This document shows positions 20,347-37,556 of a stretch of 64,000 bases of DNA, one piece after another. The notes beneath the pieces were generated by a model. That model was given only the letters and a program-made list of their open reading frames with translations. It did no database searches and had not been told where the DNA came from. The translations under genes were made by a program, and so were the position numbers. Position 1 is the first letter of the stretch. Each line of letters opens with the position of its first letter. Source of the stretch: Acinetobacter sp. ANC 7912 (lineage in GTDB: Bacteria > Pseudomonadota > Gammaproteobacteria > Pseudomonadales > Moraxellaceae); the NCBI RefSeq assembly GCF_039862785.1, contig NZ_CP156795.1:1-64000 (forward strand), in the 5' to 3' direction.

Positions 20347-20376
20347 GCTGAGTTCCCAAGGCTCAGCTTTTTTTTT
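20347..20376 (+). terminator. Orphan intrinsic terminator 1
   Basis: GCTGAG (20347-20352) pairs with CTCAGC (20362-20367), followed by nine T. No plus-strand protein gene lies upstream within more than 4 kb, so it probably ends a small RNA. Confidence 0.7.
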
Positions 20377-20523: not shown

Positions 20524-20554
20524 GGCTTATCCTCTCTAGATAAGCCTTTTTTTT
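20524..20554 (+). terminator. Orphan intrinsic terminator 2
   Basis: GGCTTATC (20524-20531) pairs with GATAAGCC (20539-20546), followed by eight T. Again there is no plus-strand ORF before it. Confidence 0.75.
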
Positions 20555-20613
20555 GCCTAAAATTTACTGAAATTTAATATGAATATTTATATTCAATCAT
20601 TTAGCACTCTTGC

Positions 20614-20631
20614 TGTAAGCAAAATCCTACA
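20614..20631 (+). promoter_or_regulatory. GacA-type upstream activating box of sRNA 1
   Basis: TGTAAG-CAAAAT-CCTACA matches the GacA box of pseudomonads (TGTAAG-N6-CTTACA) with one mismatch. Its centre is about 65 bp before the predicted start of the small RNA at about 20688, the usual distance for rsmX/Y/Z genes. Confidence 0.65.
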
Positions 20632-20652
20632 CACAGACCTGGCAATCGCGAC

Positions 20653-20681
20653 TTGGTTACAACTTAAAAATTTTCTACTAT
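20653..20681 (+). promoter_or_regulatory. Predicted sigma-70 promoter of sRNA 1
   Basis: TTGGTT (20653-20658) and TACTAT (20676-20681) are separated by 17 bp. Both boxes are imperfect, as expected for an activator-dependent promoter. Confidence 0.5.
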
Positions 20682-20687
20682 GAACCT

Positions 20688-20800
20688 ATCGAGAACAGGA
20701 TGTTCTTAAAACTTGCTGGGAAGCACATAAACGTCAGGATGTACGTTTAAACACAACCCCCTATAAAACCCTTGAGGATAAATACTTCAAGGGTTTTATT
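20688..20800 (+). ncRNA. Predicted Rsm/CsrB-type CsrA-binding small RNA 1
   Basis: An ORF-free transcript of about 113 nt. Hairpin 1 is AGAACA-GGA-TGTTCT (20692-20706), with GGA as the whole loop inside ACAGGATGT, close to the CsrA consensus. Hairpin 2 is TGCT-GGGA-AGCA (20714-20725). Hairpin 3 pairs AAACGT with ACGTTT (20729-20748) around CAGGATGT. The terminator has a perfect 13-bp stem (20763-20775 with 20787-20799) and a loop starting GGA. Four GGA motifs in loops plus a GacA box upstream is the RsmX/Y/Z layout, so I infer sequestration of CsrA/RsmA. The 5' end is estimated from the promoter. Confidence 0.68.
20763..20799 (+). terminator. Terminator of sRNA 1
   Basis: A perfect 13-bp stem with an 11-nt loop that begins with GGA; the 3' arm carries the T-rich tail (TTTTATT). 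Confidence 0.75.
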
Positions 20801-20841
20801 CCGTTTATAGCTTTAAAAACTATTTCCTGAAATTTCACCCA

Positions 20842-37219: not shown

Positions 37220-37354
37220 GACGGAGTATCTCAATATCTGCAGGGTCTTTTAGCTTAGCAACAGGCATTTTTGAAAATGTTGCTTTTTTAGCCTTCGACT
37301 GTAAGCGTGGATACAAGGAAAGAAACGAATACGTAACTGAAAAAACCGCAGACA

Positions 37355-37387
37355 GAAAAAAGCCCGAACATCCTGTCCGGGCTTTTT
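37355..37387 (-). terminator. Terminator of sRNA 2, with GGA loop
   Basis: On the minus strand AAAAAGCCCG pairs with CGGGCTTTTT, and the inner GACA-GGA-TGTT extends the stem so that GGA forms the loop. Six T end the RNA. Confidence 0.82.
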
Positions 37388-37482
37388 GTATTCCGTGATT
37401 TAGGTATAACTCCTGTCGTACCTCACATCCTGGTGCATGTGCTTATTCTTGTTTTTATGATTCGGAGCATCCTGCTCTCTAT
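37355..37482 (-). ncRNA. Predicted Rsm/CsrB-type CsrA-binding small RNA 2
   Basis: A minus-strand, ORF-free transcript of about 128 nt with four GGA motifs. The first hairpin is GAGCA-GGA-TGCTC (37477-37465). The second pairs CACAT with ATGTG (37441-37424) around GCACCAGG. A third GGA sits at 37413-37411 between GGTA and TACC. The terminator stem GCCCGGACA-GGA-TGTTCGGGC has GGA as its loop, inside ACAGGATGT, followed by six T. A GacA-type box and promoter lie upstream. The architecture repeats that of the RNA at 20688-20800. The 5' end is estimated. Confidence 0.68.
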
Positions 37483-37488
37483 GTCTCT

Positions 37489-37538: not shown

Positions 37539-37556
37539 TGTACGCTCAGGCTTACA
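37539..37556 (-). promoter_or_regulatory. GacA-type upstream activating box of sRNA 2
   Basis: On the minus strand TGTAAG-CCTGAG-CGTACA matches TGTAAG-N6-CTTACA with one mismatch. Its centre is about 65 bp upstream of the predicted start, the same geometry as sRNA 1. The left half also pairs with CTGTAAGCC at 37573-37581 as a 9-bp inverted repeat just past the neighbouring gene. Confidence 0.6.

Follow-up and report, generated by a model that had tools for sequence, protein, structure and literature searches.

In Pseudomonas, the small RNAs RsmX, RsmY and RsmZ are about 115 nt long, have GGA in their loops, end in an intrinsic terminator and are preceded by a GacA box that lies some 65 nt upstream of the transcription start. 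In E. coli, CsrB and CsrC sequester CsrA downstream of a GacA/UvrY-type regulator. These RNAs are among the closest known relatives in kind of the locus examined here.

In Acinetobacter, the accessible parts of the literature ascribe a global regulatory role to GacSA in A. baumannii (PMC5295007) and to CsrA in A. baylyi (PMC12442408), and describe CsrA as essential in A. baumannii on rich medium (PMC12802169). In A. baylyi ADP1, what follows from losing gacA appears to be csrA-dependent, and the authors model sequestering RNAs that the accessible text does not name (PMC12455638). RsmA-regulating small RNAs are predicted in ADP1 at ACIAD0018/0019 and ACIAD2750/2751 in the available text of PMC5568370, which cites Kulkarni 2006 for an earlier ADP1 prediction. 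A CsrB-like RNA is also drawn in A. baylyi, citing Kulkarni, in the accessible part of PMC12442408, and the sections available of an A. johnsonii genome paper list CsrC, RsmZ and RsmY among covariance-model matches with significant E-values (PMC4993456). The available portion of PMC11426457 describes, for A. baylyi, two small RNAs of unknown function that were mutated repeatedly. The accessible parts of PMC12802169, PMC12070743 and PMC9810633 mention CsrA and no sponge RNA. The first-pass annotation of our locus knew of no such RNA characterised in Acinetobacter; a lack of precedent does not hold, since CsrA/RsmA-regulating RNAs are already predicted in A. baylyi ADP1 in the available text of PMC5568370.

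The window analysed is a stretch of 64,000 nucleotides from Acinetobacter sp. ANC 7912. The locus of interest, which we call sRNA1, comprises the following features.

20614–20631, plus strand: GacA-type box TGTAAG-CAAAAT-CCTACA, read from the sequence, one mismatch away from the palindrome
20653–20681, plus strand: predicted sRNA1 promoter TTGGTT-17-TACTAT, inferred from the sequence
20688–20802, plus strand: predicted small RNA sRNA1, about 115 nt, from the fold, ORF absence and matches to model R1
20692–20706, plus strand: hairpin 1, AGAACA-GGA-TGTTCT, a candidate CsrA site, its GGA kept in 11/11 sequences
20714–20725, plus strand: hairpin 2, TGCT-GGGA-AGCA, its stem conserved and its GGA not, with one compensatory pair
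20728–20749, plus strand: hairpin 3, TAAACGT-CAGGATGT-ACGTTTA, a candidate CsrA site with loop GGA in 11/11 sequences
20763–20799, plus strand: terminator stem, from the fold, its GGA partly paired

The palindrome meant here is the GacA-box consensus. sRNA1 thus resembles RsmX, RsmY and RsmZ in its box near -65, GGA hairpin loops, length of about 115 nt and intrinsic terminator, and differs from them in having fewer GGA sites, two of which are conserved. With CsrB and CsrC it shares the proposed sequestration of CsrA downstream of a GacA/UvrY-type regulator, whereas it is much shorter and has far fewer sites. At the sRNA1 locus no Rfam family reached threshold, including RsmY, RsmZ, RsmX, CsrB and CsrC. 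The locus combines these features of the class of sequestering RNAs: a box some 65 nt upstream of the start as predicted, GGA in loops, short length, no ORF and a terminator. The RNAs predicted in ADP1 belong to the same genus and have the same proposed role, as far as the available text of PMC5568370 describes them.

The box reported in the first-pass annotation, TGTAAG-N6-CCTACA, is present at 20614–20631. Its centre lies near -65 relative to the predicted start at about 20688, as read from the sequence. The minus-35 element (TTGGTT, 20653–20658) is separated by 17 nt from TACTAT on the minus-10 side (20676–20681), so that the spacer and box position claimed earlier stand; as a promoter the site is less convincing, agreeing with consensus at 8/12 bases with a poor minus-35, and it is missing from the promoter-scan output for the locus. 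Such a poor minus-35 would fit an activator-dependent promoter. Across the genome, sites with at most one mismatch to the box number eight, against seven for a reversed control pattern; in other words, the box alone occurs at chance frequency. Four of those eight sites precede a GGA-bearing RNA, namely sRNA1, a second predicted RNA of the window, sRNA2 (L019), and two copies of a family that we call R3 (L017 and L023). Within the window the strict box (8/8 core letters) is found in two places, and both are followed by at least three AGGA in the next 118 nt on one strand, a density reached by 0.47% of 118-mers.

The predicted transcript folds at -33.3 kcal/mol, compared with -20.6 kcal/mol for shuffles (z -3.9; 1/200 shuffles as good). 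An intrinsic terminator is visible in the fold and unlisted by the terminator pattern scan. As the earlier reading of an ORF-free RNA had it, no plus-strand ORF of at least 20 aa overlaps the transcript of about 115 nt; a 34-aa ORF at 20579–20683 covers the box and stops before the sRNA1 start. The same reading placed GGA in four loops. Four GGA are indeed present; three lie in loops, the terminator GGA being partly inside the stem, and conservation extends to two, one in hairpin 1 and one in hairpin 3. Three AGGAT in the 118 nt of sRNA1 are reached by 0/2000 shuffles, and four GGA by 238/2000.

Conservation was followed in an alignment of 11 sequences, the window included, that represent 10 distinct transcripts. 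In hairpin 3 the loop GGA sits on a stem of 5–8 pairs in 11/11 sequences. The GGGA of hairpin 2 occurs solely in the window, the 10 other aligned sequences having GAGA, and a GGA in the terminator region is found in 3/11. Mean GGA content of the sRNA1 clade equals that of shuffles (2.36 for each), CAGGA is enriched (1.09 versus 0.12) and the A.GGA motif is absent from the clade. Covariation inside the clade is not significant (53/500 shuffles as good), the changes being too sparse to count.

To follow sRNA1 through the genus we used model R1, built from five sequences of the transcript only, with the box excluded. At E <=0.001 it matched 35/149 Acinetobacter genomes, 14 of them at 108 bits or more, one at 67.5 bits and the others at 52 bits or less; all genus-wide searches with models applied strict filters and scored 20–24 candidates per genome, so absences may reflect missed weak matches. 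Box positions were counted from 25 of 45 rows, three of the 25 being removed as duplicates. Among 11 strong loci that are distinct in promoter and transcript, the box lies at -64 or -65 in 10 and at -76 in one, and hairpins 1 and 3 keep their GGA in 11/11; the expectation that box and GGA loops would recur in relatives was borne out. The 67.5-bit match has a 7-of-8 box at -89. Ten weaker matches (L049–L058, 36–52 bits) were excluded as members of sRNA1 because they have no box at the expected place. A direct DNA search with sRNA1, which found 15/149 genomes, proved to mix sRNA1 relatives with relatives of a second family, R2, which have the 5' hairpin in common with sRNA1; models R1 and R2 split the two. 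Three matches of that search (L009, L014 and L016), near which no box is seen, appear to be due to chance.

Their coordinates put all 14 strong sRNA1 matches upstream of grpE, at a distance of about 0.9 kb. Inspection of the 30 best-scoring grpE loci found 13 with sRNA1 and the box in the same place and 17 without; the fourteenth sRNA1 genome, G033, is outside these 30. Given the spread over 14/149 genomes and the box and spacing kept at grpE loci, sRNA1 looks real but lineage-limited, predicted in 14, perhaps 15, of 149 genomes. Between grpE and sRNA1 the window contains two more intrinsic terminators (20347–20367 and 20524–20546, plus strand), with no annotated genes there, and extra small transcripts are possible. 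A GATAAGC stem resembling that of the 20524–20546 terminator occurs 72–76 nt before the box in 13/13 sRNA1 loci, and GATAAGC is also found in 6/17 grpE loci without sRNA1.

The second predicted RNA of the window belongs to the R2 family and is probably the second locus of the first-pass annotation.

37539–37556, minus strand: GacA-type box of sRNA2, TGTAAGCCTGAGCGTACA as read on the minus strand
37351–37483, minus strand: predicted sRNA2, a member of R2; its terminator loop contains one of its four CAGGA; R2 score 122.4 bits

Against the Rfam RsmY family (RF00195) sRNA2 scores 20.9 bits, the gathering score being 57. Model R2 was built from seven sequences of the transcript only, without the box. 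It matched 147/149 Acinetobacter genomes at E 0.001, with 1–15 matches each and weak matches only in a few genomes. The source genome has five strong copies: C2:1810-1938, C1:37351-37483 (sRNA2), C1:2829465-2829592 and a tandem pair at C1:3091782 and C1:3092050. The box stands at -64 for sRNA1 and these five copies, except for one at -63.

At -63 to -65, 117/122 distinct R2 copies have a box core with 7 or all of its 8 letters, and no such core occurs elsewhere within 150 bp upstream of these 122. Copies counted as members scored 47–137 bits; 137 matches entered the count, from which two were taken out because their upstream DNA was too short and another 13 because they were duplicates. Beforehand, ten rows below 37 bits had been dropped from 108 and, from 43, the duplicates L007 and L012 with two weak antisense rows. 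The five copies without a box are one each in L150, L113 (upstream masked) and L191, L015, and one with 5 of 8 letters.

R2 RNAs have 3.75 CAGGA each, compared with 0.34 in shuffles, and A.GGA is below shuffles (0.68 versus 1.28). The stems covary around the near-invariant CAGGA. In a set of 43 sequences, made up of L080, L094 and 41 picked to be diverse, 20 pairs named from one member are 96.6% paired, and 12 pairs have changed on both sides. Covariation was 0.353 versus 0.173, with 0/500 shuffles as good; the count of further pair types was weaker, at 30/500 shuffles.

A pattern scan of named genomes gave at least 118 stretches, and the 80 loci among the matches listed were all Acinetobacter. 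Across 199 genomes drawn from the Moraxellaceae, model R2 matched 99, of which 64 are Acinetobacter; the 35 other Moraxellaceae genomes have weak matches only (E 5e-6 to 1e-3). Six 'phage' records also match. In the window, sRNA1 itself matches model R2 at 29.1 bits (E 4.9e-5), mainly through the 5' hairpin and the terminator, and the similarity of these parts makes common descent of sRNA1 and R2 possible. At L113, L120, L144, L173, L179, L191 and L096, between two and five R2 copies are clustered in a few kb of DNA; their hosts are A. calcoaceticus, A. nosocomialis, A. pittii, A. baylyi, A. lactucae and the source genome. In two different species, an R2 copy breaks off at one shared position in the terminator loop and then continues as identical ATCTGACCC (L125 94–214, minus strand; L181 7118–7236, plus strand), perhaps the mark of one insertion element that targets the R2 terminator hairpin.

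The R3 family is represented by two copies in the source genome.

C1:2814947-2815100 (L236), minus strand: R3 copy, about 150 nt, box in front
C1:1567408-1567559 (L023), plus strand: R3 copy, about 150 nt, box in front

Model R3, built from these two copies with the box excluded, matched 148/149 Acinetobacter genomes, mostly with a single match. From the 31 best-listed copies, 30 are distinct, and 30/30 have 3–4 GGA and a box located at -61 to -64. GGA occurs both in a hairpin loop and in the terminator loop; in a subset of 14 sequences, an AAGGAAA loop is present in 13 and a TTTTGGGAGAG terminator loop in 14. We regard a role of R3 toward CsrA as less certain. Downstream of R3, A-rich CrcZ-like matches were seen below threshold (L017 925–1019, minus strand, 16.4 bits; L264 1169–1247, minus strand, 21.5 bits; gathering score 95). 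Altogether, predicted RNA genes preceded by a box number eight in the source genome: sRNA1, five R2, one of them on the small contig C2, and two R3.

At least five R2 copies were found among the loci examined from A. baylyi DSM 14961 (L162, L179 three times, L189). Given these copies, the RNAs predicted in ADP1 may be members of R2 or R3. Unlike R2, the ADP1 RNAs are described in the accessible text of PMC5568370 without boxes, a multicopy family or plasmid copies.

The presumed partners are encoded in the same genome, where a gacA homologue and csrA co-occur. The GacA homologue (C1:274735-275367, 211 aa) scores 270 bits against the UvrY/GacA model, whose cut-off is 280; csrA is at C1:2037926, with the start MLILTRRVGETLMIG. 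A gacA homologue is found at E <=1e-50 in 148/149 genomes and above the curated cut-off in 0/149. A test of co-occurrence with gacA loss is therefore uninformative.

On this sequence-level evidence, we think it likely that 20614–20802 encodes a GacA-activated small RNA that would sequester CsrA. The first-pass annotation had proposed as much, and conserved box spacing, GGA hairpins 1 and 3, the position at grpE and the presence of gacA and csrA all support it. With the GacS/GacA system active, the box would be bound by phosphorylated GacA, which would turn on transcription from the promoter with the weak minus-35. Hairpins 1 and 3 could then occupy both RNA-binding faces of one CsrA dimer, and capture of CsrA by sRNA1 would relieve the repression of target mRNAs. 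By established CsrA biology, two conserved sites would suit one dimer. Counted against the case are a GGA content equal to that of shuffles, the chance-level box, the poor minus-35, the few genomes, the lack of an Rfam match and the sub-cut-off GacA.

Alternatively, GacA could activate a base-pairing small RNA of the Hfq type in which the GGA hairpins are incidental. The sRNA1 clade has two conserved GGA and a total not above shuffles, and there are single-stranded segments between its hairpins, as this explanation would have it; yet the loop GGA of hairpins 1 and 3 is kept in 11/11 sequences, and the covariation of R2 stems around near-invariant CAGGA also argues against it, leaving it improbable in our judgement. 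We give marginally less credence to the idea that sRNA1 is an offshoot of R2 limited to one lineage, a sponge that is weak or in decay and whose sites are too few to have an effect in the cell. Its two conserved sites, its presence in 14/149 genomes and the ten weaker R1 matches with no box in place are consistent with such a fate. Decay would not be expected, however, to leave 11 distinct strong loci with the box, its spacing (one box shifted) and both GGA hairpins. Finally, there may be no RNA gene at all, the locus being a chance pairing of a box-like palindrome with an intergenic terminator. The chance frequency of the box alone across the genome is what this would predict, but the box-to-RNA spacing conserved in relatives and the fold z of -3.9 make it very improbable.

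Compared with sRNA1 itself, its R2 sisters, which are multicopy, spread through the genus and found on plasmids, are the more unusual result. Multicopy and plasmid-borne occurrence also sets R2 apart from RsmX, RsmY and RsmZ. We queried PLSDB with the RNA part of the copy on C2 (L080, G000:C2:1810-1938, minus strand), leaving out the box. Matches occurred at 541 places in 433 records (429 Acinetobacter, 2 Klebsiella, 1 Citrobacter and 1 Escherichia), an upper figure because PLSDB includes chromosome-sized A. baumannii records; matches spanning at least 80% of the query were found in 232 records. The A. baumannii records H107–H110, of 1 to 4 Mb, resemble chromosomes and may slightly inflate the plasmid counts. 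Among 60 listed rows spread over the ranking, 59 are below 260 kb, and 58 have no annotation under the match; one has a hypothetical protein there and one record is unannotated. The sRNA1 query matched no PLSDB record and the R3 query seven, four of them of at least 1 Mb; the plasmid signal is thus particular to R2.

Four RepM plasmids (L230–L233) have six R2 copies, each with the box at -64, and in 3/4 of them RelE/NadS or VapBC toxin-antitoxin genes lie near an R2 copy. Further down the ranking, 10 of 12 plasmids (L305–L316) have the box at -63 or -64; the two boxless copies, near the bottom of the ranking, look like 3' fragments. In total, 16/18 plasmid copies checked keep the box. We consider it probable that Acinetobacter plasmids carry CsrA-sponge RNA genes plugged into the host GacA switch, that every plasmid would add further sponge copies driven by GacA, and that plasmid content and copy number would set the strength of the Gac/Csr response. 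The literature searched showed us no sponge RNA carried by a plasmid. The closest case is a protein, RsmQ, a CsrA homologue encoded on a plasmid in Pseudomonas according to the accessible part of PMC9928087. Both would be plasmid parts that enter the host Gac/Rsm circuit; RsmQ, as described there, is an RNA-binding protein, whereas plasmid R2 is a predicted opposing RNA.

Together, sRNA1, R2 and R3 are concrete, testable candidates for the GacA–CsrA link modelled in A. baylyi. If the plasmid reading is true, R2 would match, on the RNA side and throughout the genus, the CsrA proteins that plasmids encode, and its plasmid copies raise the question of whether host metabolism and behaviour are tuned through sponge dosage. 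With related sequences found in almost all of the Acinetobacter genomes examined and in hundreds of plasmid records, plasmids could shift the CsrA regulation of their hosts.
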